DNA from: Candidatus Methanoperedens sp.
Lineage (GTDB): Archaea > Halobacteriota > Methanosarcinia > Methanosarcinales > Methanoperedenaceae
NCBI GenBank assembly: GCA_023249105.1
Contig: JAHFDG010000026.1
Coordinates: 1 to 50,989, forward strand
DNA: 50,989 nucleotides
Direction of reading: 5' to 3'
Positions within the stretch are counted from its first letter, which is position 1, and each line of letters begins with the position of its first letter. The notes under the pieces were generated by a model. The model searched no databases. It was not told the origin of the DNA and saw nothing but the letters and a program-made list of their open reading frames with translations. Both the position numbers and the translations under genes were made by a program. Positions 8,755-23,790 of the stretch are shown here, one piece after another.

Positions 8755-8817
8755 TGCGGGGGAAGGGATTTGAACCCTTGAACTCCTGCGAGAATAGAAC
8801 TTGAGTCTATCACCTTT
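8755..8817 (-). pseudogene. 3' part of tRNA-Leu(CAA), split by integration
   Basis: Read on the minus strand, this is nucleotides 21-83 of a class II tRNA: the end of the D arm, anticodon stem and loop with CAA, long variable arm, T arm and the acceptor strand CCCCCGC plus A. The first 20 nucleotides are missing here and are found at 23771-23790. Joining the parts through the shared 18-bp core gives an 83-nt tRNA-Leu with perfect acceptor (GCGGGGG/CCCCCGC) and anticodon stems. It has no promoter of its own at this position. Confidence 0.85.
8800..8817 (+). repeat. attL core (18-bp direct repeat)
   Basis: cttgagtctatcaccttt is identical to 23753-23770. It corresponds to tRNA nucleotides 21-38, from the D-stem 3' strand to the anticodon loop. 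Bases on both sides differ from the right copy, which sets the repeat limits. Confidence 0.88.
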
Positions 8818-8822
8818 AAACG

Positions 8823-8833
8823 GTAATAGATAC
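8823..8833 (+). promoter_or_regulatory. Possible integrase arm site, left
   Basis: gtaatagatac lies 5 bp inside the left core and recurs inverted at 23724-23734, inside the right end. In the rebuilt attP the two would flank the core in opposite orientation, as arm-type binding sites can. It also overlaps the likely promoter of the recombinase gene (TATA-like tactttta at about 8831-8838). Confidence 0.4.
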
Positions 8834-8865
8834 TTTTATGAAGTCTGAAAACATATTTAGCAATA

Positions 8866-10023
8866 ATGAGTAAGGAATTCGACCGTTTGAAAAGGCTTGA
8901 TCCAGTGAATAGGAAGCATCTGGAAGAATATGTAAGACAGCTTGAACTGAAGCAACTGAAACCAAACACCGTCAAAATAAAACTCTGGAAAGTCTATACG
9001 TTCATGATTTTTACGAAGTTCAAAGACAGTAAGAACATAACCAAAGATGATGTGGAAAACTATGTAATCGACAGGCGGGATAATTGCAGTCCGTTCACTG
9101 TCCAGGGAGATATCCTTGAACTCAAACTATTCATGCGCTGGCTCATGCCGGAAAGGGAAAAGGAGCTTTTTACTTTCAAGATGAAAAAACCCAAGAGGAC
9201 GCTGCCTGTTGACAAGCTGATAACAAGGAAGGATATACAAACACTCGTCCAGGCATGCGATACCCAGAGAGATAGGGCGCTTATCATGCTGCTGTGGGAT
9301 TCAGCGGCGCGCCTTAATGAAATAATGAACCTTAATTTGAATCAGGTTGAATTTGATAAATACGGCGCCGTTATTATCGTGGATGGAAAGACTGGGAGGC
9401 GCAGGTTAAGGCTAACTGACAGTGTGCCTGACCTTCAAGCTTGGGTTAATATACACTCTATGAAAGACATTCCTGATGCTCCGCTGTTCCTCACATATAA
9501 CCGGTATGGCATGGGTACGAAACGCCTGAATTTCCGCACAGTAGAGAACAGGCTGAAAAATCTTGCTGCAAAACTCAAGATGACAAAAAATATCCATCCT
9601 CATGCTATCAGGCATGCACGGCTTACCGACTTGGTGAAATCTGAAGGGAGTAAGAAAGGATTCTCAGAGATGGAATTAAGAATTTTGGCAGGCTGGGAAA
9701 AAAACAGCACAATGCCTGAAGTTTACGTGCATTTATCCGGCGCTGATATTGAGGCGAAGGTGCTTTCCAACGCTGGCTTAATTGAGGAGACAGAGGGCGA
9801 AAGGAAAGATAAAGAACTTGAGGTGAAGAAATGCCCCAGGTGTAAGATGCTTAATGCTTATGATGCGAAGTATTGCTCCTCTTGTTCACTCGTCCTAGAT
9901 CCACACATTGCACAGCAGATTGAGGAACAACAGAAATCAATACCCGAGGCACTGGCCTTGTTACAGAAGGATCCAGAATTTCAAAACATGCTCACGAAAA
10001 TCCTGACTAGTTCACGGAAGTAA
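8866..10023 (+). CDS. Tyrosine recombinase/integrase with C-terminal zinc ribbon
   Basis: This is the probable integrase of the element. The 385-residue protein has an N-terminal SAM-like core-binding domain (about 10-105) and a catalytic domain (about 115-300). Expected active-site residues are present: R149 (SAARLNE), K165, H246 and R249 (HPHAIRH), and nucleophile Y287 (PEVYVHL); Trp277 occupies the place of the second catalytic His, as in some family members. After the catalytic domain a CPRC-x10-CSSC zinc ribbon (C323, C326, C337, C340) and a short helical tail follow, an arrangement known in archaeal XerC/D-like integrases. The gene lies wholly inside the element, so it is not split on integration as SSV-type integrases are. 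Confidence 0.93.
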   Translation: MSKEFDRLKRLDPVNRKHLEEYVRQLELKQLKPNTVKIKLWKVYTFMIFTKFKDSKNITKDDVENYVIDRRDNCSPFTVQGDILELKLFMRWLMPEREKELFTFKMKKPKRTLPVDKLITRKDIQTLVQACDTQRDRALIMLLWDSAARLNEIMNLNLNQVEFDKYGAVIIVDGKTGRRRLRLTDSVPDLQAWVNIHSMKDIPDAPLFLTYNRYGMGTKRLNFRTVENRLKNLAAKLKMTKNIHPHAIRHARLTDLVKSEGSKKGFSEMELRILAGWEKNSTMPEVYVHLSGADIEAKVLSNAGLIEETEGERKDKELEVKKCPRCKMLNAYDAKYCSSCSLVLDPHIAQQIEEQQKSIPEALALLQKDPEFQNMLTKILTSSRK

Positions 10024-10086
10024 CGTAATCAGCATTATAGTAACTATTGTAAAACGCTATCTATAGCACTATTTTTATTGTTTTCT

Positions 10087-10106
10087 TTTATTACAGGTGT
10101 AATAAA
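10087..10106. promoter_or_regulatory. Perfect 8-bp-arm palindrome after the integrase gene
   Basis: Arms tttattac and gtaataaa are separated by aggt. It sits between the integrase stop and the AbrB-type gene, about 140 bp before the latter. Being AT-rich without a GC stem, it fits an operator for a dimeric regulator better than a terminator. Confidence 0.4.
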
Positions 10107-10245
10107 GGCTTAACAAGTGATTAGCACGCTTTACAGGGGATATTTTTGACTTCGGGACAATACAATAGTAAGACACCCCTTAAATAGGTCGACCATGATA
10201 TTTGAATGAGAAAGTGCCGTGAATAAGCACATGAGGTTAAGAAAT

Positions 10246-10401
10246 ATGATAAAAAGAAAGGTCGTGAAACAACACGAAAGTTTTGTATGCACACTTCCTA
10301 GAACTATGGTTGAGCTAATGGGGTTGGCTGCAGGCGACGAAGTGGCGTTTGAGTTGAGGGATGAGAACACGAAATTAACCCTATCAAAAGTGGGGGCTTA
10401 A
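10246..10401 (+). CDS. AbrB/MazE-type swapped-hairpin DNA-binding protein
   Basis: The 51-residue product has the AbrB/SpoVT pattern: KRKVVKQHESFVCTLPRTMVELMGLAAGDEVAFELRD in pieces, that is, a beta strand, the LPRTMVELMGL helix and a GDEV turn before a second strand. Such proteins are dimeric transcription regulators or antitoxins. I chose ATG 10246 because GAGG lies nine bases upstream; GTG 10219 and ATG 10231 are in frame but have poorer sites. A TATA-like cttaaatagg lies at about 10176. It probably regulates element genes, with the palindrome at 10087 a candidate target. Confidence 0.75.
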   Translation: MIKRKVVKQHESFVCTLPRTMVELMGLAAGDEVAFELRDENTKLTLSKVGA

Positions 10402-10407
10402 AGATAC

Positions 10408-10557
10408 ATGAACTACACCCCAATAGAAACGGCAACAATCGAGAAAATAGTATCAATTGATGAAAGCTTGCTCCCCGGTTTCACACCTGTCGAGCAAATC
10501 ATGATTAAGGCCGTAAAAGAGTTCTGGGCGCGAACCGAAAGCGCGAGGAGTAATTGA
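10408..10557 (+). CDS. Small unknown protein (49 aa)
   Basis: The ORF starts six bases after the AbrB-type gene and ends just before the next ATG, so it fits an operon of tightly packed small genes. The peptide is soluble and mixed in charge, ending in a Lys/Arg helix (KAVKEFWARTESARSN). No family is recognised. Its position directly downstream of an antitoxin-like gene raises the option of a toxin partner, but nothing in the sequence shows one. Confidence 0.5.
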   Translation: MNYTPIETATIEKIVSIDESLLPGFTPVEQIMIKAVKEFWARTESARSN

Positions 10558-10561
10558 GATA

Positions 10562-10729
10562 ATGATGGCTGAAAAGAATCCCGGTGCTCTGCCAGCCCCC
10601 TTCAAGATTCTTGCACAATTCGCGCAGAAACAGGAAGCAACAACTGAAAAAAGAGAAGATGCTGCGAAAACCGGCCAGGAATCCGCAGCAGGAAATTTGC
10701 ATGCCAGTATACGATCTCTGGGTTTATAA
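10562..10729 (+). CDS. Small unknown protein (55 aa)
   Basis: It starts four bases after the previous stop with GGAG upstream and two consecutive ATG codons. The peptide has a helical middle rich in Gln, Lys and Glu and an Ala-rich end. The next gene starts inside it (29-bp overlap). No family is recognised. Confidence 0.45.
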   Translation: MMAEKNPGALPAPFKILAQFAQKQEATTEKREDAAKTGQESAAGNLHASIRSLGL

Positions 10730-11039
10730 GACTACGCTTGGGGGATTTGCTATCTGTGAATTTGATCTTTGGCCCCATTACCGGCTAGCTCCACAAGGTC
10801 GGAGTCGTGTGCATTACGTTCTTCTTGAATATGTACACTGGATGCAAGACCAGGAAGTTACGAGGCCCGGTCTGGACAGTTTCACATTCGTGATCAGGGA
10901 GAAGATGGCTGACTCTATTATTGGGGAGCTGTTGGTCATTCTGCAAAGCCCGGACTCTGTCCGCAAGCTGTCGATGACCGAGAGCCTGCTTTCAGAGCAT
11001 TTTGGAATGATATGTAGTGCCGAACACCAGGGGATTTAA
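10701..11039 (+). CDS. Unknown element protein (112 aa)
   Basis: The sequence from MPVYDLWVYKTTLGGF onward looks like a compact alpha/beta domain with several Trp and Tyr residues. The in-frame extension upstream to 10584 overlaps the previous gene and has random-looking composition, so ATG 10701 with GGAA eight bases before it is preferred. No family is recognised. It ends the first small-gene operon; an AT-rich dyad region follows. Confidence 0.6.
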   Translation: MPVYDLWVYKTTLGGFAICEFDLWPHYRLAPQGRSRVHYVLLEYVHWMQDQEVTRPGLDSFTFVIREKMADSIIGELLVILQSPDSVRKLSMTESLLSEHFGMICSAEHQGI

Positions 11040-11100
11040 AATTGACATTAAGTCTTCGCCCATTCATCAGAGGATTTGCTTCTTTTTGGGCAATTTTGTC

Positions 11101-11232
11101 CCTATATAGATATAGAAAAAGCAAATGTAAACATGTATACATATCAATACAATTGCTACAATCGGTAACTGTTGTCTCCTCACAATCGAATTGTATTGAC
11201 AATTCGCTTAATTGTCATCATTTTACACTTCT
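11101..11232. promoter_or_regulatory. AT-rich region with repeated acaatt/aattgt motifs, possible operator or origin
   Basis: The region holds a perfect palindrome at 11187-11206 (arms cgaattgt and acaattcg, spacer attg). Further copies of the half-motif are acaattg at 11149, acaatcg at 11182 and aattgt at 11210, and palindromic gtatac lies nearby. It precedes the small DNA-binding-like gene and the MCM helicase. In archaeal plasmids and viruses, origins often lie beside the replication gene, so it is a candidate origin or promoter/operator. Confidence 0.45.
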
Positions 11233-11243
11233 TGGGGATGTCT

Positions 11244-11729
11244 ATGGCCAATAAGTCAGTTGGGACTACATCAGACAAACTTGTTCCAGTCCAGTTCAAG
11301 CTCCTAGAAAGTCAAAAAAGATTTCTGGATAGCATGGGAGCACCGGCCTCGGCATTCGTGAGGAAGCTGATAGCCTCTCAGATGGAAGGTCATGCACCAA
11401 AGCTTGCGGAACTGAAAAAAGAGTGGAATCAAATTAAATTTAACCTTCATGCCAAAGAATTACAGATCGCTGAACACGAATCCCTCACTGCAAAGATGCA
11501 GCTCTCCACTCAAGGCCGTGAAGAAAGCATCGCCAAACACGTTGCTATCCTTTTCGAAGACCTGCGCGTGCATCATAGGATAAAAAAGCTCCAGATATTC
11601 ATCAGAAACAACGTTACCAACATAAACACACGACTCGCCGGTTCCGGAGCGATGCTTGTGACCGAGGTCGAATTAACCGATCGTTTAAGGGCGAAGGCCA
11701 AGGACGAGGGGGTAAAGCTGCTTGACTGA
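11244..11729 (+). CDS. Unknown protein upstream of MCM (161 aa), helical
   Basis: The protein begins MANKSVGTTSDKLVPVQFKLLESQKRFLDSMGAPASAFVRKLIAS. This resembles a short beta strand followed by two helices, as in ribbon-helix-helix proteins. A long charged helical region (about 55-130, possible coiled coil) and a conserved-looking end follow. I chose ATG 11244 because GGGGATG lies just upstream; a longer in-frame start at 11172 runs through the dyad region and is unlikely. It overlaps the mcm start by 8 bp. It could be a replication accessory or copy-control protein, but that is inference from position. Confidence 0.6.
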   Translation: MANKSVGTTSDKLVPVQFKLLESQKRFLDSMGAPASAFVRKLIASQMEGHAPKLAELKKEWNQIKFNLHAKELQIAEHESLTAKMQLSTQGREESIAKHVAILFEDLRVHHRIKKLQIFIRNNVTNINTRLAGSGAMLVTEVELTDRLRAKAKDEGVKLLD

Positions 11730-13719
11730 TTATGAAACTTTCCTCAAACAGTATTATCACGATGCCATCATGACGCTCGCTGGTGAAACCCCAGATAGGT
11801 TATCGCTTGAAGTTGATTTTGACCATCTCCAAAACTTCGACTCTGAGGTGGCTGAAACCCTATTGGAGGCCCCCGACATTGAATTGGAAAATCTTATAGT
11901 GGAATTACATGGGTACCCTGTCCCTGATGGATCTCTGGAAGGCACCACGATAAGTATATCAAATCTTCCCGATACCGAGAAAATTGCAGTTAATAAAATC
12001 GGCAGCGCGAATATTTCAAAATTCGTTTTGGTTGAGGGGAGGATCAGCAAAATCAGCCCCAGACGCGCAAAGTTAGTGGAGGCTGCCTTCCAATGTCCCT
12101 TTTGTGGATATGTCTTAATGTTAAAACAGCCGGATGATCGCCTTACTGAACCTTTCGAATGCGAAAGTGTTGATTGTGGCCGAAAGGGACACTTCAAATT
12201 AGTGCATAATAAATCAACATGGGTTGATGAACAGAAATTAGAGCTGCAGGATAAATACGAAACCTTGAAACCAGGCCAGCCGATGCGAGAAATTGTAGTC
12301 ACTGTGCGTGGGCGCGACTTAATTAACTCCATCCCTGCTATTGGTTCGCAGGTAAACATAACCGGAATAGTCAGAACAGTCCAGAAAACAGGGGCGGGGG
12401 GCGCAACAAGCATCTTCATACCAGTTCTGGAAGCTAATCACATCGAATCGGTAGACGTTGATGATGTAGATATGACATTGACGGCGTCTGATAAAGTGCA
12501 GCTGGTAGGGCTTTCAGCGGACCCTGAAATAATCAATAAATTGGGATTATCAATGGCACCATCCATCTTCGGATACCAGGAAATTAAGATCGCGGTTCTG
12601 GCGTCAATGGTATCCGGCCCAAATCGGACCTTACCGGATGGGAGCACCTTACGCGGATACGTGCACATTGCCCTTTGTGGGGATCCTGGAACTGCCAAAA
12701 CTACCATAGCCACTGCAGCTCGGAGGCTTGCTCCGCGGGTACAATACTCGGCCGGACGAGGGTCAACCACAGCCGGATTGACTGCTTCAGCCGTGAGAGA
12801 CGAATTGAGTGGCGGCTGGACTATCGTGCCCGGAGCCATGATTCTTTCCGATTATGGTTACTTCATCGAGGACGAGTTTGATAAAATCGAAGAGGGAGAT
12901 CAACACGCGCTAGGTGACGCATTAGAATCCAGCAAAATTGATGTGCACAAAGCTGGATTGAACCAAACCTTCAATACCCGCTTCGCCTCCCTCTTTCTTA
13001 TGAACCCGAAGGGCATTCGATTCGACGACTACAAGCCGTTGGCACAACAACTGAGTATGCCCGGGAATATACTCAGCAGGATGGATCAGGTCTTCCTGCT
13101 GCAGGACATACCGGAGCCTGGAAGGGACAGGAAAATCGCGGAGCACCAAATGTTGACATGGTCGGCTTCGCCTAGTGAAAAGATCGTGCCTATCATTCCC
13201 ACGGAAACGCTCCGCAAATATCTGGTGTACGCCAAAACCTTTGACCCCATTATCCCGGGTGGTGTCGCGTCCGCGATTGTGGAATATTTCCTGAGTGTCC
13301 GAGGCAGTAGCAATGGCGGCGCTATTCCTGCAACCTTCCGGGAGAACAACGGCATCGCACGCCTTGTTAAATGCATAGCAAAATTGCGGTTGTCAAACGA
13401 ATGCACAATGGGTGATCTTGAGATCGTCAAAAGGCTCTGTGACCGGGCGCGGACCAGCATCATCGACCCGACCAGCGGCATGCCAGACATCGACGTACTG
13501 ACAGGCGCGCCAACCAAAAGCCAGCGCGACCGGGTAAAAATCATCAAGGAAATAATACAAACATTACAGGGTGATGATGCTGCATTCTTCGACGAAATCG
13601 CATCAGCCGCAAAGGTTCAGGGTATTACTTTCGACCATGTTGCTGATCTCTTGAAGCATTTGAAAACCGAGGGGGATGTACTCGAAATGAGAGACGGTTT
13701 CTACAGGTGGGTGGAGTAA
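11722..13719 (+). CDS. mcm: MCM-family replicative helicase of the element
   Basis: MCM helicases unwind DNA ahead of the archaeal replication fork. This 665-residue copy has an N-terminal domain with a zinc-binding CPFC-x18-C-x4-C set (C125, C128, C147, C152). An OB-fold region follows, then the AAA+ core: Walker A GDPGTAKTT (K326), Walker B EDEFDKIEEGDQ (D384, E385), sensor-type MNPKG (about 427-431) and the arginine-finger LSRMD (R453). A winged-helix C-terminus ends with EMRDGFYRWVE. The start is a TTG inside the previous gene. It is an element-borne copy, implying that the element can direct its own replication. The first codons lack a recognisable N-terminal A-subdomain signature, so function is inferred from the core motifs. 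Confidence 0.92.
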   Translation: MTDYETFLKQYYHDAIMTLAGETPDRLSLEVDFDHLQNFDSEVAETLLEAPDIELENLIVELHGYPVPDGSLEGTTISISNLPDTEKIAVNKIGSANISKFVLVEGRISKISPRRAKLVEAAFQCPFCGYVLMLKQPDDRLTEPFECESVDCGRKGHFKLVHNKSTWVDEQKLELQDKYETLKPGQPMREIVVTVRGRDLINSIPAIGSQVNITGIVRTVQKTGAGGATSIFIPVLEANHIESVDVDDVDMTLTASDKVQLVGLSADPEIINKLGLSMAPSIFGYQEIKIAVLASMVSGPNRTLPDGSTLRGYVHIALCGDPGTAKTTIATAARRLAPRVQYSAGRGSTTAGLTASAVRDELSGGWTIVPGAMILSDYGYFIEDEFDKIEEGDQHALGDALESSKIDVHKAGLNQTFNTRFASLFLMNPKGIRFDDYKPLAQQLSMPGNILSRMDQVFLLQDIPEPGRDRKIAEHQMLTWSASPSEKIVPIIPTETLRKYLVYAKTFDPIIPGGVASAIVEYFLSVRGSSNGGAIPATFRENNGIARLVKCIAKLRLSNECTMGDLEIVKRLCDRARTSIIDPTSGMPDIDVLTGAPTKSQRDRVKIIKEIIQTLQGDDAAFFDEIASAAKVQGITFDHVADLLKHLKTEGDVLEMRDGFYRWVE

Positions 13720-14177
13720 TGGCCGGATCGGATAACAAACGTTCCGCGGGAAGACCAAGAGGTTTAGGACCCAGATTGACGCGCGGTGGAAGCGGCGCAT
13801 ATCTCACTTCTACCACTCCTGAAGAAATTTATGATTATTGGAAGAGACATGCCCCCGGGAACGCGCGCCGTGCCGATGAAATCACTTTCATCTACCTCCG
13901 AGAGCTCAAATGGAGTTCAAATCATCCCCGCTACGCGGAAGTAAAAACACTTGCTATTAAAACTGTAAGCAGGGGTGCGCTCTTTGTGAGAATCTTGGAA
14001 CAGGATTTTACCCGGACCGTCCGAGATCCTTTGACAGGCAAAGAAGTCAGGAAAAGGCCCTGCGATCAGTTCGCGCGCCTGGAAGAGCTCGACTCGGAAA
14101 TCCACGAGCGGCTGAGTTCGCTCGGGCTGCTCAAATCAGGTTTATCAAATGAAGACAATAAAAATAGAAGGAGATAA
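13719..14177 (+). CDS. Unknown protein, weakly terminase-small-subunit-like (152 aa)
   Basis: Its ATG overlaps the mcm stop (taATG), so translation is probably coupled. The N-terminus is basic and Gly/Arg-rich (GRPRGLGPRLTRGG). A helical region follows, ending in CDQFARLEELDSEIHERLSSLGLL. The combination of a basic N-terminus, a long helix and a terminal LGL helix is reminiscent of P27-type small terminase subunits, but no large subunit lies nearby and the likeness is weak. Confidence 0.55.
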   Translation: MAGSDNKRSAGRPRGLGPRLTRGGSGAYLTSTTPEEIYDYWKRHAPGNARRADEITFIYLRELKWSSNHPRYAEVKTLAIKTVSRGALFVRILEQDFTRTVRDPLTGKEVRKRPCDQFARLEELDSEIHERLSSLGLLKSGLSNEDNKNRRR

Positions 14178-14178
14178 A

Positions 14179-14379
14179 ATGAATAATACAGACGTAAAGA
14201 AATATCGAAAGATGAAAAAGAGCATTTGCGAAGCCAAAAAAGAACTGAAATTGCTAATTGACTTCTTTACCCCCTCTTGCTGGAATCCGCAGCTTCTTGA
14301 AACCGCGCAAATCATCGATACGCATCTCGATTCAGCGGCGGCGCAGCTCGCGATATTACAGCCATCAAAGAAGGAGTGA
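14179..14379 (+). CDS. Small helical-hairpin protein (66 aa)
   Basis: GGAGATAAA precedes ATG 14179; an in-frame ATG at 14149 inside the preceding gene is less likely. The product is two helices joined by a short turn (SICEAKKELKLLIDFF, then QLLETAQIIDTHLDSAAAQL). The pattern recalls Spo0E-type aspartyl-phosphatase hairpins in length and spacing, but the SQxLD signature reads AQIID here, so I do not assign it. It starts one base after the preceding stop. Confidence 0.5.
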   Translation: MNNTDVKKYRKMKKSICEAKKELKLLIDFFTPSCWNPQLLETAQIIDTHLDSAAAQLAILQPSKKE

Positions 14380-14385
14380 CGGACG

Positions 14386-15231
14386 GTGGAGAAGTACGTT
14401 AATGATTTGCAGAGTGTAGTAGAAAAGATAATCTGGAACTTCCTAGAAACTAACAAGGAGTTGGTACTTAACCGTATTATAGGGGGAGATGGACTGATTC
14501 TCACTGCCGCACTGAACAAGAACATCTACATAGAGCCGGCTGGAACAGGGAAGGGCTATTATAAAGGTGCGGAGATTGTAACGGCTGCAAGTGTAGTTAC
14601 GGACCACGCACTTTTAGCGAACCTTGACTACGCTTTAGCAGGACATACCGGATTTGCTCCAACCTCACACGCCCACCCACATAATCATGATGGTGTTTAC
14701 TTAAGGCTCGTTGGTGGAGACTTGATGCTTGGTGACTTCAGCATGAATGGGAATAGCATCAATGGTATGGCTTATTCCACTGATTGGAACTCACTTACTA
14801 ATGACCAGGCAATAGCTAAGGGCAACATCGCTAACTGGATGACGAAAGAACAGACCCCACAGAATAATTGGTACTTCCAATATGGTCTCAGGTTGCCACA
14901 AGGAACGGATGCTGCAAAATCTGCGACACCAGTAGAAGGGCAGGCATATTGGGCGACAGATACGGATAAGTTATACATTGGGAAGGGAAGCAATCTGTGG
15001 GCTGAAGTGGGTACAGGGTCATATCTTCCGTTGAGTGCGGGTTCTAATAGCCCACTAACAGGCGACCTTTATATTAATAAGACAATCCCAAGTTATTACC
15101 TCCGAAGTGATGATGTCACGAAAGGCAACCTGTCATGGCAAAGTGGTGTTGGGATGGCGGTTAATAGCGCTGTGGACGATTTGATTCTGAGCGTTCCGGC
15201 TAGGAAGAAAGTAAAAATTCAGATAGGTTAA
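14386..15231 (+). CDS. Virus tail-fibre-like protein (281 aa)
   Basis: A GTG start follows AAGGAGTGA. After a helical N-terminus the protein has features common in tail fibres and receptor-binding proteins: a His-rich HAHPHNHDGVYLRL segment (about residues 105-118), a GDLMLGDFSMNGNSING repeat-like stretch and a beta-rich end. The segment AYWATDTDKLYIGKGSNLW matches the widespread virion module in which a tDt-klyig-dG-W pattern recurs. It probably forms an adsorption fibre. It is followed after one base by a second beta-rich gene. Confidence 0.7.
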   Translation: MEKYVNDLQSVVEKIIWNFLETNKELVLNRIIGGDGLILTAALNKNIYIEPAGTGKGYYKGAEIVTAASVVTDHALLANLDYALAGHTGFAPTSHAHPHNHDGVYLRLVGGDLMLGDFSMNGNSINGMAYSTDWNSLTNDQAIAKGNIANWMTKEQTPQNNWYFQYGLRLPQGTDAAKSATPVEGQAYWATDTDKLYIGKGSNLWAEVGTGSYLPLSAGSNSPLTGDLYINKTIPSYYLRSDDVTKGNLSWQSGVGMAVNSAVDDLILSVPARKKVKIQIG

Positions 15232-15232
15232 A

Positions 15233-15778
15233 ATGTCTTGGTTTTACAACGGTCATGAATATCTGTATCAAGATATCGTTCATCAATCATTATACACAGG
15301 AGACACTTACTCAATACCAAGTAGCATCTATAGTTTATATCAGAGTACCATTGTTGTTCCAACAATGCAGTCAGCTATAAACCCAAAAAAGAATGGCGTA
15401 ACATTAGCTTCCCTAGTTCTTCAGGTTGGCGGCGTGGTAGATTGGGAAGGTGATACTAATAATTTTTATGTGCATTTATGGTGGTTTGATTCTTCTGGGC
15501 CTTGGTGTGCATATGATTTGTATTGGAATCCAGTACAATCGATGCTTAATGATGTATATGTTAACTCGTCAACAGGTCACGATGTAGATACAGGAGCAGA
15601 TGCTGCTCATGCACTCAAAACTTTCGGAAAAGCATACAGTTTACTCAACTCTGGCGGTACAATCCATGTATGCAATAATTCGGCTGACTTTTCAGGAGAA
15701 ACAGTGACATTGAATAAGAGTCTTAATATTGACTTGAACGGCTCAACCGGATATTTCTGCATGCCTAAAGCAAGCTGA
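15233..15778 (+). CDS. Beta-rich protein with the start of a beta-helix, probably tail-spike-like (181 aa)
   Basis: The first 110 residues are aromatic-rich and unknown. From about residue 120 the sequence (NDVYVNSSTGHDVDTGADAAHALKTFGKAYSLL, quoted in part) matches the opening of pectate-lyase-like beta-helices in surface and tail-spike proteins. These usually continue for 200 residues or more, whereas this one stops at KAS about 30 residues later, so it looks C-terminally truncated. It follows the fibre gene directly. Confidence 0.6.
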   Translation: MSWFYNGHEYLYQDIVHQSLYTGDTYSIPSSIYSLYQSTIVVPTMQSAINPKKNGVTLASLVLQVGGVVDWEGDTNNFYVHLWWFDSSGPWCAYDLYWNPVQSMLNDVYVNSSTGHDVDTGADAAHALKTFGKAYSLLNSGGTIHVCNNSADFSGETVTLNKSLNIDLNGSTGYFCMPKAS

Positions 15779-15780
15779 CC

Positions 15781-16200: not shown

Positions 16201-16204
16201 ACAT

Positions 16205-16941: not shown

Positions 16942-16949
16942 GAGCGTGT

Positions 16950-17093: not shown

Positions 17094-17098
17094 ACTTT

Positions 17099-17187
17099 GG
17101 GCGGTCTATGCTCGAATCATTTAGTGTGTAGGCCGCTCAATTCACAATGTCAGAGGTCGGCGCATCTCCTTCTTGTAACCGCCGGCC
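17099..17187 (+). other. Two tandem hairpins in a 121-bp gap
   Basis: Hairpin 1 pairs 17099-17108 with 17129-17138 (10 bp, two G-U). Hairpin 2 pairs 17155-17162 with 17180-17187 (8 bp, GC-rich, one G-U). They fill most of the gap between the basic mini-protein and the next gene. They could end one transcript or protect or regulate the mRNA of the downstream hub gene. Confidence 0.45.
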
Positions 17188-17214
17188 TTCAACTTATCAA
17201 ATAAGAGAAATTTT

Positions 17215-17340
17215 ATGACAACAATAGACATTAAAAGAATAGAAAAAGAACTTAAAGTTCTGACCCAAGAACTTTCGTATCTGCGCACCGATATCGAAGG
17301 AAGCCGTGAATTGCTGCGGCACAAATACCGCAGTGGATGA
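17215..17340 (+). CDS. Very small coiled-coil protein (41 aa)
   Basis: A single amphipathic helix with heptad spacing (KRIEKELKVLTQELSYLRTDI) ends in a basic tail. AGAGAAA precedes the ATG. Its stop is directly followed by the GTG of the next mini-gene. Confidence 0.45.
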   Translation: MTTIDIKRIEKELKVLTQELSYLRTDIEGSRELLRHKYRSG

Positions 17341-17463
17341 GTGAATACTGAAGTCTCGGAGAACGAACATATCAAACTAATGCATGATACATTGAACAAG
17401 CTTGATCAGGTTGATACCGCAATTGGGTTACTGGGGGCGAGTCTTCATGGCACAGAGACTTGA
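17341..17463 (+). CDS. Very small protein (40 aa) abutting the hub gene
   Basis: A GTG start directly follows the preceding TGA, and the ORF overlaps the hub gene by 17 bp. The peptide is helical in its middle (HIKLMHDTLNKLDQVDTAIGLL). No family is recognised. The tight packing suggests translational coupling into the hub gene. Confidence 0.4.
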   Translation: MNTEVSENEHIKLMHDTLNKLDQVDTAIGLLGASLHGTET

Positions 17464-19432
17464 AGGTTATGTAAAGAGTCCAAATGGTTTCGGCAATGGT
17501 ACATATGAGGTCCTGCATCCGAAGGGGACATCGGTAGAGATAACCAGGTCGTTATTTGAGGGCGATTCACTGAAAATAACATCAATCAGGAATACACCAG
17601 ACCCGGCACTTGAGGGGGCGCGCGGCATCAGGTTCTATGATGGGGATAAAAAACTGTTTGATGGTTACCTGCGTGCACCGGACTATCAGCGTGGCAGCAA
17701 TAAGTTCAGGACTCTGACCACCACCATATATGACTGGCGAAAAGAACTTGAGGCGCTACAGGTAGTGCCACTTGAAGACGGTTTCAGTTGGGCTGATCAA
17801 ACAATAGACGCTATTCTGGCTGACATCTGTGAGTTGGCAAACTCCGTTGGGGTTGTGAAAAAGCAGATCTACAAATATGACCCCGCCAAGCTCCCTTATT
17901 ATCCATCCACTTTCTCAACAGAACTGATCTCCCCGACCGTTACGAACACAATCTGGGGTTCCATGATGGAACTGACGAGAACGATGGATATCCTGGAAGT
18001 TGATCGCACAGGCCAGTGGATGATAAAAGTTGACAGCCTGCAGGATGACAATTACATCTATATCATCCCGCAGATGGCCTCAATAGATACAGCCGCATTC
18101 GGGAACTTTGAAGTGGGGGCGGGATTCACAAACCTTTTCACTCATCCTTACGGCCTGATGCTCTGGGCGAAGACCCTCACGGATATAACGGGAGCGCCAT
18201 CGATGGATATTAACTTAACAATAACTTACACGGACCAGGATGGATTGACCTCAAATACAGCCACCGTTAAGATCCCGAGAGGCACACCGAAAGGCGCCTA
18301 TTTTCCCATTTCACTGGAACAAGGGGATACGTTTGTGAAAGATGTTACCAATATAACGGGGTCGGGCGGAACATCAGGCGATGCCGTCCGGATAGAAGGG
18401 AAAGGTACAAGGACAATTCCTGACTGGAAACTCCAGCCGCCAAAGAATATCGGGAAAGATTACACAAAATTGCTGAATCAAGTGGTAATCAAAGGCAAGA
18501 CAATCATTGGTGGGGGGATAACACTTAAAACTCAATCGCTTGGGGATATTCTGCTATTAGGCACCGTGGAATTAGCTGCTTCGTCCGGCGGTAGCTCTAC
18601 ATTGCTGATTGATGCCGATGCCTCGTTCCAGACATGGGGTGTAAAGAGCGAGGACCGGGTAAAGAATATAACAAAGGGTCAAGAGTGTTCGGTGGTTTCG
18701 GTGGATAGCCAGACACAACTAACAACCACGCCACTGGTGGCTACTTTTTGGGGAGATGGCGACATATATGAGATGGACATCGGCAAATCGATTACGTCAA
18801 ACGATTTTTATGTCAATACCGCGATCCAGCCGACAAAGAGAAACTACTTAGTGATCACTATCTTGAACCCAACTGGAAGTGATAAGACCGGGAGTGTGAA
18901 GCTGCGAGGATTCTCGGGTCCGCCGGAAGGCGAGGATGAATTGCTTGAAGAGCGTTTCTATCTCAAGGTGCCTGCCGGGCATAGTAGAGATCACGCGACC
19001 GATAACCGCTACTATTCGTTGTCTATGAACGTGGAACCGAATACAGGCCTGAATATAACCGGCTTCTGGGGTTGCACCGTCTGTGTTGAGGAGTATATGT
19101 ATGGCGTAGCTGGGAGATCAATAAACCTGTTCGGTCTCAGAGCAGATACTATCATGAGCATGGATTTTGACACGCAGCTAAAGTGTAATACCTATGCTCA
19201 CAAACTTGTGGAATCATATCACGCGCCGATGGTTTATGCCTCGGCAGTGCTCAAGCCGGACTTCATAGATACTTCAGACCTCACGGGGAAGACCGTTCGA
19301 TTGGATGATGAACTTACAGGAAGCCAAATGGACTTCCTGGTCAACAAGCAGATCTTGAAGCTCAGCGGGGTAGAGAGGCGTGAGCAGATAGAAGCGATGA
19401 GATTCAACCACGACTGGGAGTACACGGAGTAG
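17447..19432 (+). CDS. Large tail-hub/baseplate-like protein (661 aa)
   Basis: I chose ATG 17447, with GGGGGCGAG upstream; the frame opens 45 bases earlier without a good start. The N-terminal 200 residues follow the pattern of siphovirus-type tail hub proteins: SLFEGDSLKITSIRN, a GIRFYDGDKKLFDGYL strand pair, then a helical stretch. About 210-560 is beta-rich and may include carbohydrate-binding-like modules, with repeats of GSGG and SSGGSST type linkers. The end (DLTGKTVRLDDEL, QILKLSGVERREQIEAMRF) again resembles hub proteins. This is the largest structural-like gene of the element. Assignment rests on fold-like patterns, not a recognised signature. Confidence 0.6.
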   Translation: MAQRLEGYVKSPNGFGNGTYEVLHPKGTSVEITRSLFEGDSLKITSIRNTPDPALEGARGIRFYDGDKKLFDGYLRAPDYQRGSNKFRTLTTTIYDWRKELEALQVVPLEDGFSWADQTIDAILADICELANSVGVVKKQIYKYDPAKLPYYPSTFSTELISPTVTNTIWGSMMELTRTMDILEVDRTGQWMIKVDSLQDDNYIYIIPQMASIDTAAFGNFEVGAGFTNLFTHPYGLMLWAKTLTDITGAPSMDINLTITYTDQDGLTSNTATVKIPRGTPKGAYFPISLEQGDTFVKDVTNITGSGGTSGDAVRIEGKGTRTIPDWKLQPPKNIGKDYTKLLNQVVIKGKTIIGGGITLKTQSLGDILLLGTVELAASSGGSSTLLIDADASFQTWGVKSEDRVKNITKGQECSVVSVDSQTQLTTTPLVATFWGDGDIYEMDIGKSITSNDFYVNTAIQPTKRNYLVITILNPTGSDKTGSVKLRGFSGPPEGEDELLEERFYLKVPAGHSRDHATDNRYYSLSMNVEPNTGLNITGFWGCTVCVEEYMYGVAGRSINLFGLRADTIMSMDFDTQLKCNTYAHKLVESYHAPMVYASAVLKPDFIDTSDLTGKTVRLDDELTGSQMDFLVNKQILKLSGVERREQIEAMRFNHDWEYTE

Positions 19433-19459
19433 TAATAGGGGGCGAGCACCCGGTTTGTG

Positions 19460-19648
19460 ATGGCTATAAGTGCACTGCCGGCACCGCACCCTGATTTTCC
19501 AAATGGATATGGCAACTTTAGAAAAAAATTTTGGCGAGGGGTACACACCCAGACAGAGATCAAATTCCTAAAGTTTCTGACAACCACGACCAGGCACCCG
19601 GACAGCGTGGGCCCAGTGGTAAAAAAAAGAACAAATCAAGGCATCTGA
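19460..19648 (+). CDS. Doubtful small ORF (62 aa)
   Basis: It follows the hub gene by 27 bp, with a GGGGGCGAGCACC stretch like the one before the hub gene. The peptide is basic with no recognisable feature, and its end overlaps the stop of the convergent membrane protein gene. It may be real or a chance frame; nothing else is seen in 19433-19635. Confidence 0.3.
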   Translation: MAISALPAPHPDFPNGYGNFRKKFWRGVHTQTEIKFLKFLTTTTRHPDSVGPVVKKRTNQGI

Positions 19649-19896
19649 TATACCTGATATCCATCGTTCGTGAGGTCTATGTACACACCGGTTACGTCTA
19701 TAATCGAACTGTTATTGTATCCTGCATTCATAGCCGGTGGCGGGTTTGCCTTAAGCCCGCTTGTTCCTGACGGTCCCGGGTCTTGCGTAGTAACTACAGC
19801 GGCTACCACCACAAGCAGTAACAGACAGATCAACATGATCTTGTGTTCTTTTACTATCTCAACTATTCCTTCACTGGTTTTTTTATTATTTGCCAT
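19636..19896 (-). CDS. Small membrane-anchored protein (86 aa)
   Basis: A polar N-terminus (MANNKKTSEGIVEIVKEHK) is followed by one membrane helix (IMLICLLLLVVVAAVV) and an extracellular Gly/Pro/Asn-rich tail of about 45 residues. This layout resembles archaeal pilin-like or small virion membrane proteins, but no type III signal-peptide cleavage motif is clear. A strong TATA-like ttttaaataaa lies 22-32 bp before the ATG on the minus strand. It is the last leftward gene, convergent with the structural operon. Confidence 0.65.
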   Translation of the reverse strand: MANNKKTSEGIVEIVKEHKIMLICLLLLVVVAAVVTTQDPGPSGTSGLKANPPPAMNAGYNNSSIIDVTGVYIDLTNDGYQVYQMP

Positions 19897-20011
19897 ATTA
19901 AATCGCAATTGGCAACTTTATTTAAAACCGGCCGCACATCTTTGAATAGGCCACTGGCAAAAAAAGAAGTCCACAGAAGTTTGGCATGTTCAGTGTGAGT
20001 TGGATGATATT

Positions 20012-20176
20012 ATGAAAAACATAATTTTATATGATTTGTGTGATAGAGAACTTGTTCCAGGTGTTAAGGTTTCCGATGGTGCTTTGAGCAGTCGGCTGCT
20101 TGGAATGCCTGTCCTCTACAATCCTGAATGCCAGGGATGTGGTCTGAACTGTCCTTTATTATTTATCACGAGCTAA
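20012..20176 (+). CDS. Small Cys-rich protein (54 aa)
   Basis: The C-terminal third contains C40, C43 and C47 (CQGCGLNC), with C10 near the start, giving four cysteines that could hold zinc. It is short, lacks a strong ribosome site and lies between two leftward genes, so confidence is limited. Confidence 0.4.
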   Translation: MKNIILYDLCDRELVPGVKVSDGALSSRLLGMPVLYNPECQGCGLNCPLLFITS

Positions 20177-20194
20177 AAAAAAGAGAGGGAAAGT

Positions 20195-20782
20195 TTATAT
20201 TTTCTTAACTTCTTCACTTACCAACGTCCTTATATACTGTTGTTTGACCTTTCCCTCTTTCCCATGTTCACCCAATCTTGAAAAGTGCATTCCAAACAGC
20301 TTCAGGCTCCATTTATTGAGTATTCTCTTTTCGGTTTCTATTGAAAGGTCTTTGCATACACACCTTATCGTTTCATGGTGTTTTCCCAGTACCGTTCCTA
20401 TTTCCCTGTAAGGCATTTTTTGTCTTCTCATTTCCCGGATCTTATTTCGTTCTTCAGTTGTTATCTTGTGTAATGGTTTAACTGTAGGTCTAGTGACGTT
20501 GTTCAACTTGTACCAGTCCATTAGTAAGGCATATTGGGCGTCCGCATTTGGTGCAGTCATTATCTGTTTTAAAGGTGTTCCTTTGTATCCTTTTTTAAAC
20601 AGGTTGTAGTTATTTCGAAGTAAGTAAGGTGCTGAGACCTTTAGATTGTTTGACCAACCTCTTGGTGGCAATACCTCTCTAGCTGAACCGTCTTTATAAG
20701 GTATTTGGTCGTTCGCGATTTCTATTCTTTCATCGTTGTCGATGGTTTCTATATTAGTCCAATTGTTCTTTTCTATTGACAT
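20195..20782 (-). CDS. Helix-turn-helix protein of the element (195 aa)
   Basis: A very good AGGAGG site precedes ATG 20782. The C-terminal half has a resolvase/homeodomain-like HTH at about residues 107-144 (TTEERNKIREMRRQKMPYREIGTVLGKHHETIR, quoted in part), the DNA-binding module seen in transposases and many small regulators. The N-terminal 100 residues are unknown. The minus-strand TATA-like sequence near 20840 fits its promoter. It could be an element regulator acting on the dyad-rich DNA to its right. No catalytic serine-recombinase domain is present. Confidence 0.65.
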   Translation of the reverse strand: MSIEKNNWTNIETIDNDERIEIANDQIPYKDGSAREVLPPRGWSNNLKVSAPYLLRNNYNLFKKGYKGTPLKQIMTAPNADAQYALLMDWYKLNNVTRPTVKPLHKITTEERNKIREMRRQKMPYREIGTVLGKHHETIRCVCKDLSIETEKRILNKWSLKLFGMHFSRLGEHGKEGKVKQQYIRTLVSEEVKKI

Positions 20783-20896
20783 ATTTCCTCCTGTTAAACC
20801 TTGCAACCATTTCGAGTTCTTATTGACTCACCAGTCACAATTTTAATTAAAATTCCAGCTACTGCTGTTCCTTAATTTGACTGAAAAATGGAGGTC

Positions 20897-21043
20897 ATGA
20901 AAGTAAGAGACCTATGCACTCACTCTCTCGGCGTTCTTGTGGAAGCAGACAGGCACTTGATGCTTACGGATTCAGGCTTTAGCCTCATTATCTATTTGCG
21001 GCGCAGTTCGCCGCATCAAATATTCCATGCGCACATGGCGTAA
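20897..21043 (+). CDS. Possible small ORF (48 aa) inside a structured region
   Basis: A GGAGGT site lies just before this ATG, which argues for translation. However, the whole frame lies inside a dense set of inverted repeats (20911-21101), and the peptide (MKVRDLCTHSLGVLVEADRH...) shows no feature, so the DNA may be kept for its structure. If translated, it could be a leader peptide. Confidence 0.3.
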   Translation: MKVRDLCTHSLGVLVEADRHLMLTDSGFSLIIYLRRSSPHQIFHAHMA

Positions 21044-21245
21044 GCTTCAAGTAAGCCTGGCTGAGGGTAATCGTACGAGAGAGTGTCCGTGCCTTGTGCA
21101 TGTAGCTACGAGGCTCGTGCCCGCAGGCACGGCGAAAGCATTGTCAATAGTCGCCCTCCGGTTGTAGCGCAAGATCCTCGATACATTTAATCTGCTGGCA
21201 AAAAAGAAGCAACCGTGTAGAGGATATTTACGGTTACACACCACT
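20911..21245. other. Strongly structured region, candidate non-coding RNA or single-strand origin
   Basis: Nested inverted repeats occur. Outer arms are 20914-20919 with 21096-21101 and 20921-20930 with 21076-21085 (10 bp perfect). A middle arm pairs 20955-20968 with 21039-21052 (13 of 14). Inside these are perfect small hairpins: aggct/agcct near 20974-20985, gcggcg/cgccgc near 20998-21013 and ccatg/catgg near 21024-21037. Further right are gtgcc/ggcac near 21117-21130 and aaccgt/acggtt near 21211-21235. No long ORF crosses it convincingly. Confidence 0.5.
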
Positions 21246-21252
21246 GATAATC

Positions 21253-21414
21253 TTATTTAAAATTAGATCTCCCTGTGTTGAACTCAGCGACGATTTTCCG
21301 TGAGGCTAATACTACAGCGCATTCGAGATCAGTTAGCAGTGGAAACATCGAGTCATCTATTTTAGAAGCTGCTAAGATATTGGGGCTTTTGGCGAGTTCT
21401 CGGATTGTCTTCAT
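21253..21414 (-). CDS. Small unknown protein (53 aa)
   Basis: AGAGGTGA sits just upstream of ATG 21414, a strong archaeal ribosome site, so I chose this start over a longer in-frame ORF to 21618. The peptide (MKTIRELAKSPNILAASKID...) is helical with no recognised family. It is 31 bp downstream of the Cys-rich gene and probably cotranscribed with it. Confidence 0.5.
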   Translation of the reverse strand: MKTIRELAKSPNILAASKIDDSMFPLLTDLECAVVLASRKIVAEFNTGRSNFK

Positions 21415-21445
21415 AACTTCACCTCTGAAAAAAGAAAGCGCTGCC

Positions 21446-21631
21446 TTAATTGACAGCACCCAGCGAGTAAGGCCAGTAATATTCACGAAATCTGATATCC
21501 TCTGGATACAGTGTTGAGCAGATTGAACATACCATGCGATTCCTGACTGCATATTGGCATGATCTGCATATCTCTTTATTCGGTACAGGCCCATCCTGAG
21601 CCGCCACGTTATTTTCACTCATTTTTACCAT
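21446..21631 (-). CDS. Small zinc-finger-like protein (61 aa)
   Basis: Two CxxC pairs (ICRSCQYAVRNRMVCSIC) form a compact treble-clef or ribbon-like zinc site at about residues 22-39. AGAGG lies eight bases before ATG 21631. Mini zinc proteins of this type are common in archaeal viruses and plasmids. Function is unknown; DNA binding is plausible. Confidence 0.55.
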   Translation of the reverse strand: MVKMSENNVAAQDGPVPNKEICRSCQYAVRNRMVCSICSTLYPEDIRFREYYWPYSLGAVN

Positions 21632-21792
21632 ATTTTTAACCTCTTCCCTGTGCGAGCGAGGTGATATTCAATCCTACCACAACGATTCTTATATGAATAC
21701 CACCAGCGCACCGTTACGTTCCCAACCTATTTATAATTTATTACAGTATATAGATATTATTACTATCGTAATACGTGCGTAATAATGAAATG

Positions 21793-21990
21793 TTAAAGCA
21801 CCTCTCCGGCATCCCTGAGTGTTGCTTCCATGCCTCGCATCTCTTTGCAGTACTCTTCCCATTCCTGGATAGATTTAGCATCAAATGGGTCCGGAATTGG
21901 CGCGCTGCTTGCCCTGGCTGTGAATAGTTCTCTAAGCTTCTCGCGCTCTGTTCGAGCGAAGGTTTTATTTGCGTTTGATTCATTCTTCAT
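21793..21990 (-). CDS. Small charged helical protein (65 aa)
   Basis: GGAGG eight bases before ATG 21990 decides the start; an ATG five codons upstream overlaps that site. The peptide is helical (TEREKLRELFTARASS..., then SIQEWEEYCKEMRGMEATL). No family is recognised. It is the first gene of the leftward set, with a TATA-like element about 105 bp upstream at 22093-22104. Confidence 0.55.
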   Translation of the reverse strand: MKNESNANKTFARTEREKLRELFTARASSAPIPDPFDAKSIQEWEEYCKEMRGMEATLRDAGEVL

Positions 21991-22193
21991 ACTAACTGCC
22001 TCCATTACAGGCGGTGGCGCATTACAACAGATCGCGGGATTCTAACTCCTGCGAACTGCTTGCGCTTTGAGCCTTTTAATTCACCTTTAGCAATTTTATT
22101 TAAAATCGCTCGGCTGCGGCTCAAAACATACCACAGACTAACACGCTTTTATACTATTTATAACTTGCCACTGTGTATAAATGTTGTGGGAGT

Positions 22194-22231
22194 ATCACAG
22201 AGGTATTACGGCTGCATCACAATCGTATTAC
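22194..22231 (+). repeat. Two iteron-like 16-bp direct repeats, 22-bp period
   Basis: atcacagaggtattac (22194-22209) and atcacaatcgtattac (22216-22231) agree at 13 of 16 bases and start 22 bp apart, about two helical turns. A third atcaca begins at 22239. Same-face spacing is typical of protein-binding iterons. Confidence 0.45.
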
Positions 22232-22698
22232 AGTAGTGATCACATCTCTAACCGGACCTCTTCAAGCCAGCAGTAGGCTAAGGGCACACCAACAACACCC
22301 CCATCCCATCTTCATATCGTCTTTTTCTTTCTCAACTTTCTTTGGGAAAGAAAGCGTACACTGTTTGCATTTGCTCAGTTCGGTAAGTTAACCCCATGGC
22401 TACCATGGATGGAACAGACCTGCACTCCAACAGCGACTTCATGAGAAGCCTCTGGCAATTATACTTAGTGATCATCTAAGTGCCGTGCTTCAGCATGAGA
22501 AACACCGATACCTGCTCGGAAATCGGTATCAAATGCCATCTTTTCATTGATTTACTGGGTATGAAATGTATGCCGGTGCCTGGATGCCTCGTTGTAGGTT
22601 AAAATAAAGAGACTGAATAAAAATAAACCTCCCCTCTTTTCACCACAGAACGAAATCAGAGAGATGATCCTGGAAGCGCCTGCGGCGATCACCCGGGC

Positions 22699-22761
22699 CA
22701 GCGTTAGTGTGGGTTCGGCGATAGCCGAAAGTTCGCAGGCTTGCGAACGTCCCGCACGCTG
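22699..22761 (+). other. GC-rich branched fold, candidate structured RNA
   Basis: A six-bp closing stem (22699-22704 with 22756-22761) plus ggg/ccc (22711-22713 with 22751-22753) encloses two perfect hairpins. These are ttcggc-gata-gccgaa (22714-22729) and gttcgca-ggct-tgcgaac (22731-22748). The unit is compact and near-symmetric, unlike an operator. Confidence 0.45.
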
Positions 22762-22943
22762 TAGGCACAAATCGCCTGATGGCTGAAAGCAAACGACAGG
22801 GCGGGCATTGTCCCGGTAATTACGGCCGCTGGGTAGCTATAGATGCTTCCGCCTGTGATTATCGACATGCAGTCTGCGCGCCAGTGATTTGGATTCGTTG
22901 CAGTGAAGGAAGCTATTTAAAGCGCTGGGCTCATGGTAAAAGT

Positions 22944-23378
22944 ATGGTGGCCGACCCCAGTTATGTTGTGCGAAGTTGGCGCTGCGGAAGACTCACGACC
23001 GAGGAGGCCGCTAGGTTACTACTCACGACGGTGGAGGACTTTTACTGGATTGCTTTTGTAGAAGAGCAGTTAAACAGATACAGACCCGAACCTGAGGTTG
23101 AGAGTGATATAACAAGGATGAGCAAAGAGGGTGTGCTCCATAAGGTACTCTTCCATGATATAGGAATAGACGAAGCGGCTGAGTTGCTCTGTGTATCAGA
23201 GGAGGAAGCTCAGAAATTATTTGATGAATGGGTAGAGGAATATGAGAAGTGGATTGAAAAAGAATGTGAGCTCCAGCAGCAAGAATGGGACTGTTTCGCT
23301 CAGCGGGAAGACGACTGTTTCTCTCGTCCGACCTCCAGAGCCGTGTTGTACCGGTCATCCAGACTTAATCACCGCTGA
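22944..23378 (+). CDS. Unknown protein with two helix-turn-helix-like motifs (144 aa)
   Basis: I prefer ATG 22944: TATTTAAA lies about 30 bp upstream, giving a near-leaderless transcript, and the in-frame extension to 22779 is compositionally odd. The product has two similar helical units, RCGRLTTEEAARLLLTTVEDF and HDIGIDEAAELLCVSEEEAQKLF, which look like EAA-type HTHs as in UPF0175-like antitoxins. A long acidic helix and a Cys/Gln/Arg tail follow. A small DNA-binding or antitoxin-like protein is plausible. Confidence 0.5.
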   Translation: MVADPSYVVRSWRCGRLTTEEAARLLLTTVEDFYWIAFVEEQLNRYRPEPEVESDITRMSKEGVLHKVLFHDIGIDEAAELLCVSEEEAQKLFDEWVEEYEKWIEKECELQQQEWDCFAQREDDCFSRPTSRAVLYRSSRLNHR

Positions 23379-23518
23379 TAAGCGGCGCTTCCTTCGTGGG
23401 TCTGGGTGAAACCCAGCGCCGTACCTGTTGGAGTGGTTGGATTACCTGGGATACCTTTTCCTCGTGATGCTGTGATTGCGGCTGCTTGAGTTGTCTGATT
23501 TGTTGCTGTCGTTTTGAC

Positions 23519-23540
23519 AGGGGCGCGCCTGCCCCTTTGT
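23519..23540 (+). terminator. GC hairpin followed by T-rich bases
   Basis: Arms aggggc (23519-23524) and gcccct (23531-23536) are followed by ttgtt. It lies 140 bp after the HTH-like gene and before the convergent tRNA, so it could end rightward transcription. The rest of 23379-23619 shows only a small ctgggt-gaa-acccag hairpin at 23402-23416. Confidence 0.35.
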
Positions 23541-23619
23541 TAAACATGATAGGAATCAATTTGTTTGAGCCACGCCGCTTATTTCGTCAAAAATAACTAA
23601 CCAGAATGATATAGATTAA

Positions 23620-23702
23620 TGCGGAGGAAGGGACTTGAACCCTCGAACTCCTGCGAGAGCAGCTCTTGAGGCTGCCGCCTTTGACCGCTTGGCTACCTCC
23701 GC
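23620..23702 (-). tRNA. tRNA-Leu(CAA), complete, carried by the element
   Basis: The 83-nt class II tRNA has acceptor GCGGAGG/CCTCCGC plus A73, D stem GCC/GGC, anticodon stem GCAGC/GCTGC with loop CTCAAGA (anticodon CAA, reads UUG), a variable arm closed by CTC/GAG and a T arm. CCA is not encoded. It differs from the interrupted host copy at roughly 15-17 of 83 positions, mostly compensated stem changes, so it is a diverged homologue and not a recent duplicate. It lies 50 bp downstream, in transcription order, of the host gene's 5' remnant. Confidence 0.93.
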
Positions 23703-23723
23703 ACGTTGCTGATTTATTTTTAT

Positions 23724-23734
23724 GTATCTATTAC
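23724..23734 (-). promoter_or_regulatory. Possible integrase arm site, right
   Basis: The minus-strand sequence gtaatagatac equals 8823-8833. It lies 18 bp from the right core, between the core and the replacement tRNA. Confidence 0.4.
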
Positions 23735-23752
23735 TATATTTTGGTATTAAGT

Positions 23753-23770
23753 CTTGAGTCTATCACCTTT
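23753..23770 (+). repeat. attR core (18-bp direct repeat)
   Basis: It is identical to 8800-8817. To its right the sequence continues into the host tRNA 5' end; to its left it leaves the tRNA. Confidence 0.88.
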
Positions 23771-23790
23771 GGCCGCTTGGTTACCCCCGC
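23753..23790 (-). pseudogene. 5' part of tRNA-Leu(CAA), split by integration
   Basis: On the minus strand these are tRNA nucleotides 1-38: acceptor GCGGGGG, D arm, and the anticodon stem and loop up to CAAG. The sequence then runs into AT-rich element DNA. The native promoter, to the right, is kept, so transcription would run through this fragment into the complete tRNA at 23702-23620. Confidence 0.85.

Follow-up and report, generated by a model that had tools for sequence, protein, structure and literature searches.

A mobile element in Candidatus Methanoperedens splits a tRNA-Leu(CAA) gene and carries a complete isoacceptor with a different anticodon stem

A mobile element of 14.9 kb interrupts a tRNA-Leu(CAA) gene in Candidatus Methanoperedens sp., a methane-oxidizing archaeon (GenBank assembly GCA_023249105.1, contig JAHFDG010000026.1, positions 1 to 50,989; this whole stretch of 50,989 nucleotides is referred to as the window). 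The element very probably belongs to a clade specialized on tRNA-Leu genes, which splits the host gene and carries a recoded isoacceptor that supplies the lost function. A preliminary description of the window had proposed that the element breaks the gene and brings its own tRNA. The analysis adds that this is a habit of the whole clade, that the isoacceptor matches in every case, that the anticodon stem is rewritten, and that replacement tRNAs become domesticated.

The split gene and its empty site

The host gene lies on the minus strand, where it runs from 23790 to 23753, is broken, and resumes from 8817 to 8755. The locus contains the following features.

8755..8817, minus strand: 3' part of the split tRNA, 100% identical to the stretch 21-83 of the joined gene
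8800..8817: core repeat CTTGAGTCTATCACCTTT, left copy, 18 bp, read directly
8823..8833, plus strand: inverted-repeat arm GTAATAGATAC, read directly; putative integrase site
8866..10023, plus strand: tyrosine integrase of 385 aa (PF00589, 9.6e-18), an intact open reading frame (ORF)
23620..23702, minus strand: complete replacement tRNA-Leu(CAA), found by ARAGORN and by the Rfam tRNA model (58.5 bits, above cut-off)
23703..23752, minus strand: spacer of 50 bp that separates the replacement tRNA from the 5' part, read directly
23724..23734, plus strand: inverted-repeat arm GTATCTATTAC, partner of 8823-8833, read directly; putative integrase site
23753..23770: core repeat, right copy, the same 18 bp, read directly
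23753..23790, minus strand: 5' part of the split tRNA, 38/38 identical to the fragments in genomes G003 and G020 and to intact genes of congeners

Joining the flanks in silico gave an 83-nt tRNA-Leu(CAA) that was accepted by ARAGORN and in which every stem is paired. ARAGORN predicted no tRNA at either junction alone, the 18-bp core being too short to rebuild one. The replacement is 83.1% identical to the split copy, with compensated stem changes among the 14 of 83 positions that differ; its anticodon stem reads GCAGC/GCTGC versus ATAGA/TCTAT in the split gene. The preliminary description had placed the core within the tRNA, had joined the two parts into 83 nt, and had noted a same-anticodon copy 50 bp from the 5' fragment, different at about a sixth of positions with paired stem changes, all of which agrees with these results.

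The replacement is the only intact Leu(CAA) gene in the window genome (3.28 Mb, 134 contigs, 99.74% complete). No further Leu(CAA) was present among the 46 tRNAs over the cut-off, whose neighborhoods were reread with ARAGORN, and a DNA search of the genome (E<=10) returned nothing beyond the inner copy, both pieces of the split gene, other isoacceptors, and short matches due to chance. A sole copy is what would be expected of a true addiction module, that is, an element that cannot be lost because it carries the only tRNA. The preliminary description had raised this idea, and its premise holds; its consequence probably does not, as precise excision, for which the intact core repeats appear suited, would rebuild the native gene and make loss harmless. 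Lethality would follow only if the replacement were lost in place, and we regard addiction in the strict sense as unlikely.

An uninterrupted full-length gene, 95-99% identical to the joined copy, occurs in 20 of 30 congeners. The empty locus of the congener G009 is flanked by the same two host genes as the element.

8184..8735, plus strand: putative flavin-reductase-like gene, host flank on the 3' side; its counterpart next to the uninterrupted tRNA of G009 is 93% identical
23942..24529, plus strand: ribosomal protein S3Ae (PF01015, 5e-74), the host gene flanking the promoter side of the tRNA, 97-98% identical and adjoining the intact tRNA in G009, G015, and G025

Without a break at the junction, 1449 bp of the joined window flanks align with G009 (93% identity), and the native upstream region of the 5' part aligns there as well. 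Given this continuous alignment with both flanking genes, the locus was therefore whole before integration. The split parts, the inner copy, and the empty site together uphold the proposal that the element broke the gene and brought a tRNA with it. The inner tRNA is close to the split one, as it would be if an ordinary adjacent pair of Leu(CAA) genes had existed and the element had landed in one of them. However, congeners with the empty site hold one Leu(CAA) each, so that the natural pairs that the preliminary description had named as a counterexample were not encountered; the inner tRNA lies between the core repeats; and the layout is conserved across different isoacceptors (see below). We consider an ancestral pair extremely unlikely. 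In two further genomes, G004 and G026 (95-96% complete), Leu(CAA) was not found by pattern and may be divergent, intron-bearing, or absent.

The halves also resemble a trans-spliced split tRNA, with the inner tRNA as a spare copy. The 11-nt tails at 8823-8833 and 23724-23734 are complementary around the core, and the break lies near the canonical 37/38 intron site. Against this, the core is present in both halves, and inverted repeats are expected as integrase sites; on sequence grounds, the inverted repeat around the core in the attachment site of the element (attP) is a probable candidate integrase site. In addition, a full isoacceptor is always there (50 bp away in the window), and the 5' halves of G022 and G003 have decayed, that of G011 being truncated. 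Trans-splicing is thus very unlikely, and we rejected a split-tRNA reading of the window halves with their element tails.

A clade of tRNA-Leu-splitting integrases and its rewritten stems

The integrase has conserved catalytic residues in alignment and a C-terminal Cys4 motif, and it starts 49 bp inside the left core. Its relatives (41-85% identity) occur in Methanoperedens, Methanolobus, Methanococcoides, Methanosarcina, and other Methanosarcinales and also in Methanoregulaceae (Methanoregula and Methanolinea). The Leu-splitting integrases, that of the window included, form one clade in the tree (33 rows, 100/100 support), and each member examined has a tRNA-Leu 3' half directly upstream and no complete tRNA there. 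Several more distant integrases (~26-36% identity) have a complete tRNA nearby. Relatives were also seen in DPANN archaea (Pacearchaeota, L279, 38%; Woesearchaeota, L282, 31%), with no tRNA-Leu fragment found nearby. Viral contigs yielded no close integrase relative, only one distant match with the clade profile, and no free element. The assemblies of G002, G003, and G054 yielded no clade integrase, though they hold 5' junctions of the kind described next.

Since ARAGORN overlooked known tRNAs when run on long loci, BLAST comparison with tRNA libraries was used to place fragments and replacements. At all 27 scored 5' junctions, a complete tRNA-Leu begins 37-113 bp beyond a tRNA-Leu 5' half. 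Besides the window, both element ends lie on one contig in, among others, G014 (Candidatus Methanoperedens nitroreducens ANME-2d), G005, G017 (BLZ2), G019, G097, G098, G099, G103, G109, G115 (Methanolobus bombayensis), G138, G140, G153, G162, and Methanoregula PtaU1.Bin051, and the Leu-splitting elements range from about 13 to 45 kb. The window genome is a draft of 134 contigs, in which unrelated contigs or strains might have been joined by assembly or binning. The same layout is found in five single-contig genomes (G098, G099, G109, G138, and G153), which therefore removes assembly error as an explanation; it also recurs in named cultured strains, one empty G009 locus matches both window flanks, and the integrase sits at the expected end. 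We assign an artifact virtually no probability.

At 27/27 junctions, replacement and split gene share the same anticodon, with CAA, TAA, GAG, TAG, and CAG all represented. Across the seven anticodon-loop positions, replacements and split genes show 0/189 differences; the anticodon stem is changed in 27/27 replacements with pairing preserved. Differences fall at 53/135 positions of the 5' strand of the stem and 42/105 of the 3' strand (39-40%) versus 9-10% in the rest of the tRNA. These counts were scored with loop anchors over junctions that are not all independent and represent about 15 distinct stem swaps; the GAG junction was read by hand, as the script had shifted its loop by one.

The window replacement differs from the ancestral type: its identity to the only Leu(CAA) that G013, G016, and G029 possess is 98.8%, which fits the earlier suggestion that it came from elsewhere. 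This identity, and the fact that native tRNAs of some other genera differ in the stem as well, would also be expected if stem differences reflected capture from distant relatives rather than selection against self-recognition. However, each of the 27 replacements differs, and only the stem shows the excess; the remainder is often nearly identical. In the six most similar pairs (G138, G140, G099, G103, G153, and G162), the stem differs at 4 positions and the rest at 2-4, the G138 pair having 4 stem differences and only 2 elsewhere. Among native Leu(CAA) pairs with <=4 differences outside the stem, 2/310 show a stem change, compared with 6/6 element pairs of that similarity; this natural-variation control leaves out the G054 replacement and was gathered by similarity, so it is biased to similar tRNAs. 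The G013-type loci, moreover, may themselves be former element tRNAs. Distant capture as the whole explanation seems improbable, and we favor selection against self-recognition.

The preliminary description had proposed that the native promoter may read through the 5' fragment into the replacement. In some relatives, however, the native upstream motif is repeated inside the gap at the same distance, which suggests from sequence that the replacement has its own promoter there.

Several loci depart from the simple layout. At L250:480-18582 in G139 (Methanolobus vulcani PL 12/M), the integrase and the 3' Leu(TAG) half are present, while at the other end the 5' half is absent and a single full tRNA carries the recoded stem; the junction appears to have collapsed, with the element remaining in place. 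In G156 (L330, C1:1608000-1627900), several 3' halves and full copies of tRNA-Leu surround an integrase over ~50 kb, which suggests stacked insertions at a single Leu locus. The GAG element of G005 has, just within its boundary, a second tRNA-Leu(TAA)-like sequence of a quite distinct type (L136:3178-3267). A near relative of it occurs alone in G000 (L212, C17), G022, and G026; in G000, it is preceded by partial tRNA-like repeats.

Replacement tRNAs without elements, and element cargo

Element-type tRNAs also occur at host loci that lack the element. At the Leu(TAA) locus of G022, the native promoter is followed by a 5' half that is shortened and bears mutations, then by an 8-bp spacer remnant, and finally by an element-type tRNA. 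In G011, GCGGGGGTAACC is fused to the end of an element spacer at Leu(TAA). The native promoter is joined directly to an element-type Leu(TAA) in G005, G008, G012, G016, and G029. For Leu(CAA), G013, G016, and G029 carry the window replacement type at the S3Ae locus beneath the native upstream region, and G002 carries a G003-type tRNA. Because the other type is found genus-wide and in related families, these tRNAs are best read as left after element loss. The direction from element tRNA to host gene is clear from sequence in G011 and G022 and is likely by extension elsewhere.

We lean, with reservations, toward a broader reading: that the clade destroys tRNA-Leu genes and supplies integrase-proof isoacceptors that outlive the elements, replace the host genes, and immunize the lineage, thereby driving Leu tRNA turnover in Methanosarcinales and Methanomicrobiales.

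Two other observations concern these loci. At L087:3946-4790 in G029, a full tRNA-Leu(CAA) has a same-type 3' half ~700 bp downstream, a classical-looking remnant at the same locus. The tRNA-Leu(TAA) of the G014/G024 lineage (L133:3389-3446, L205) has a short insertion in the D-loop region that is probably an intron. The D-loop disturbance in the G014 5' fragment had been considered as decay; the intact G024 gene has the same insertion, and we did not use it as evidence.

The cargo of the window element includes the following genes.

11722..13719, plus strand: MCM-like replicative helicase (PF00493, 1.8e-59; phrog_10371, 6.6e-144)
13707..14177, plus strand: 156-aa protein, function unassigned, common to the G014 element (33% identity)
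17402..19432, plus strand: 676-aa protein, function unassigned, common to the G014 element (43% identity)
20195..20806, minus strand: HTH_38 regulator (PF13936, 2.1e-09)

A structure prediction for the 676-aa protein had a predicted local distance difference test (pLDDT) score of 31 and was discarded. Family searches recognized no capsid or terminase among the window element proteins. The G005 element carries a terminase, and the G098 element carries an MttB-type methyltransferase. In G153 (Methanosarcina group), a Leu(CAG)-splitting element at L237:2381-12346 carries the defense proteins HmaA, HmaB, and HmaC (PADLOC, E=0 each). Beyond the integrase, attP, and the tRNA, the elements have little in common; the integration-plus-tRNA cassette is therefore a module of different element kinds.

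Proposed mechanism and relation to known systems

We propose that the tyrosine integrase recombines attP with the host attachment site (attB) within the anticodon stem-loop. In a review of archaeal recombinases, the overlap region of archaeal and bacterial integrases lies at the anticodon loop and the stem forms the binding arms (PMC8371274). Because attP shares only ~11-18 bp with the tRNA, the host tRNA is not rebuilt and is left as two useless parts, as the sequence shows. The complete same-anticodon isoacceptor 37-113 bp inside the promoter-proximal end would then supply the lost function. A native stem on this replacement would create two adjacent recombination sites and leave the last tRNA copy still a target. 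The rewritten stem may hide the replacement from the element's own integrase and from related incoming elements, so that attP would not be deleted from the element nor the essential tRNA recut, with the loop kept for decoding. Integration without the tRNA, or deletion of the tRNA while integrated, should be lethal. The replacement is thus probably undeletable as long as the element is integrated, which would explain why it outlasts the rest: where an element decays in place, the tRNA would be retained as the gene of the host.

Several points weigh against this account. Expression of the replacement and excision of the element are predictions from sequence. A TATA scan of the spacers scored 6.0/8 versus 5.96/8 in shuffles, AT-rich DNA blunting the test. 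Leu(CAA) may be partly redundant, as Leu(UAA) could read UUG; TTG makes up 38/245 leucine codons in sampled flanking genes, but the TAA and GAG tRNAs, likewise split by the clade, are expected to be indispensable. The argument from stem recoding is correlational; the 27 junctions (~15 distinct swaps) are partly interdependent, and the natural-variation control favors similar tRNAs.

If the account holds, it shows how mobile DNA can take the place of an essential host gene that is supposed to be very stable, and it suggests a testable design rule, namely, to rewrite the stem and keep the anticodon loop. A recoded tRNA with an attP-int cassette could serve in integration vectors for methanogens. 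We found no description of an archaeal case, of stem recoding, or of domestication in the literature searched, which covered few subscription journals and preprints.

Among archaeal elements, the pNOB8-type and SSV-type share with the window element a tyrosine integrase, a tRNA target, and, in some, strand exchange around the anticodon loop. The pNOB8-type has an intact integrase beside a reconstituted tRNA, whereas in the window the integrase is intact and the tRNA is not reconstituted; in the SSV-type (suicidal), integration splits the integrase, whose ORF is intact in the window. According to Badel et al. 2021, an uninterrupted tRNA is always restored (PMC8371274). In the loci examined here, a widespread clade never restores its target tRNA, contrary to that rule. 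At the Caldiarchaeum tRNA-Thr locus, likewise, a full but altered tRNA stands next to a 5' tRNA fragment left by a mobile element, and the authors suggested that this protects against further invasion (Sugahara et al. 2012; PMC3293823). That case differs in being a single locus with intron gain, in which the full tRNA was read as reconstituted at the site and not carried.

The strategy itself appears, by analogy, to match one already known, the tRNA-dependent lysogeny of the actinobacteriophages Fionnbharth, LeBron, and Gaia (Guerrero-Bustamante and Hatfull 2024; PMC10865867). In that study, experiments showed that the phage tRNA is needed to survive integration, the Lactobacillus prophage Lj965 was cited as a related case, and wider occurrence was suggested; its text contains neither the word archaea nor the term anticodon stem. 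Both systems have a tyrosine integrase beside attP, attB in a tRNA gene, and a same-isotype element tRNA (Gaia uses Leu-CAA), and in both the core is too short to rebuild the tRNA (8-17 bp in the phages and 18 bp in the window). The Fionnbharth attP reads CTTTTAATCAG and its tRNA CTTTTAACCGG, a single case in which the stem may be recoded too. The archaeal elements differ in domain and integrase clade, and the need for the tRNA, experimental in the phages, is here a prediction. The Fionnbharth tRNA lies ~2.8 kb from int, compared with 37-113 bp between junction and replacement in the archaea. Use of all five Leu isoacceptors, systematic stem recoding, and domesticated remnants characterize the archaeal clade, a case that broadens tRNA-dependent integration beyond actinobacteriophages, to archaea and all five leucine isoacceptors.

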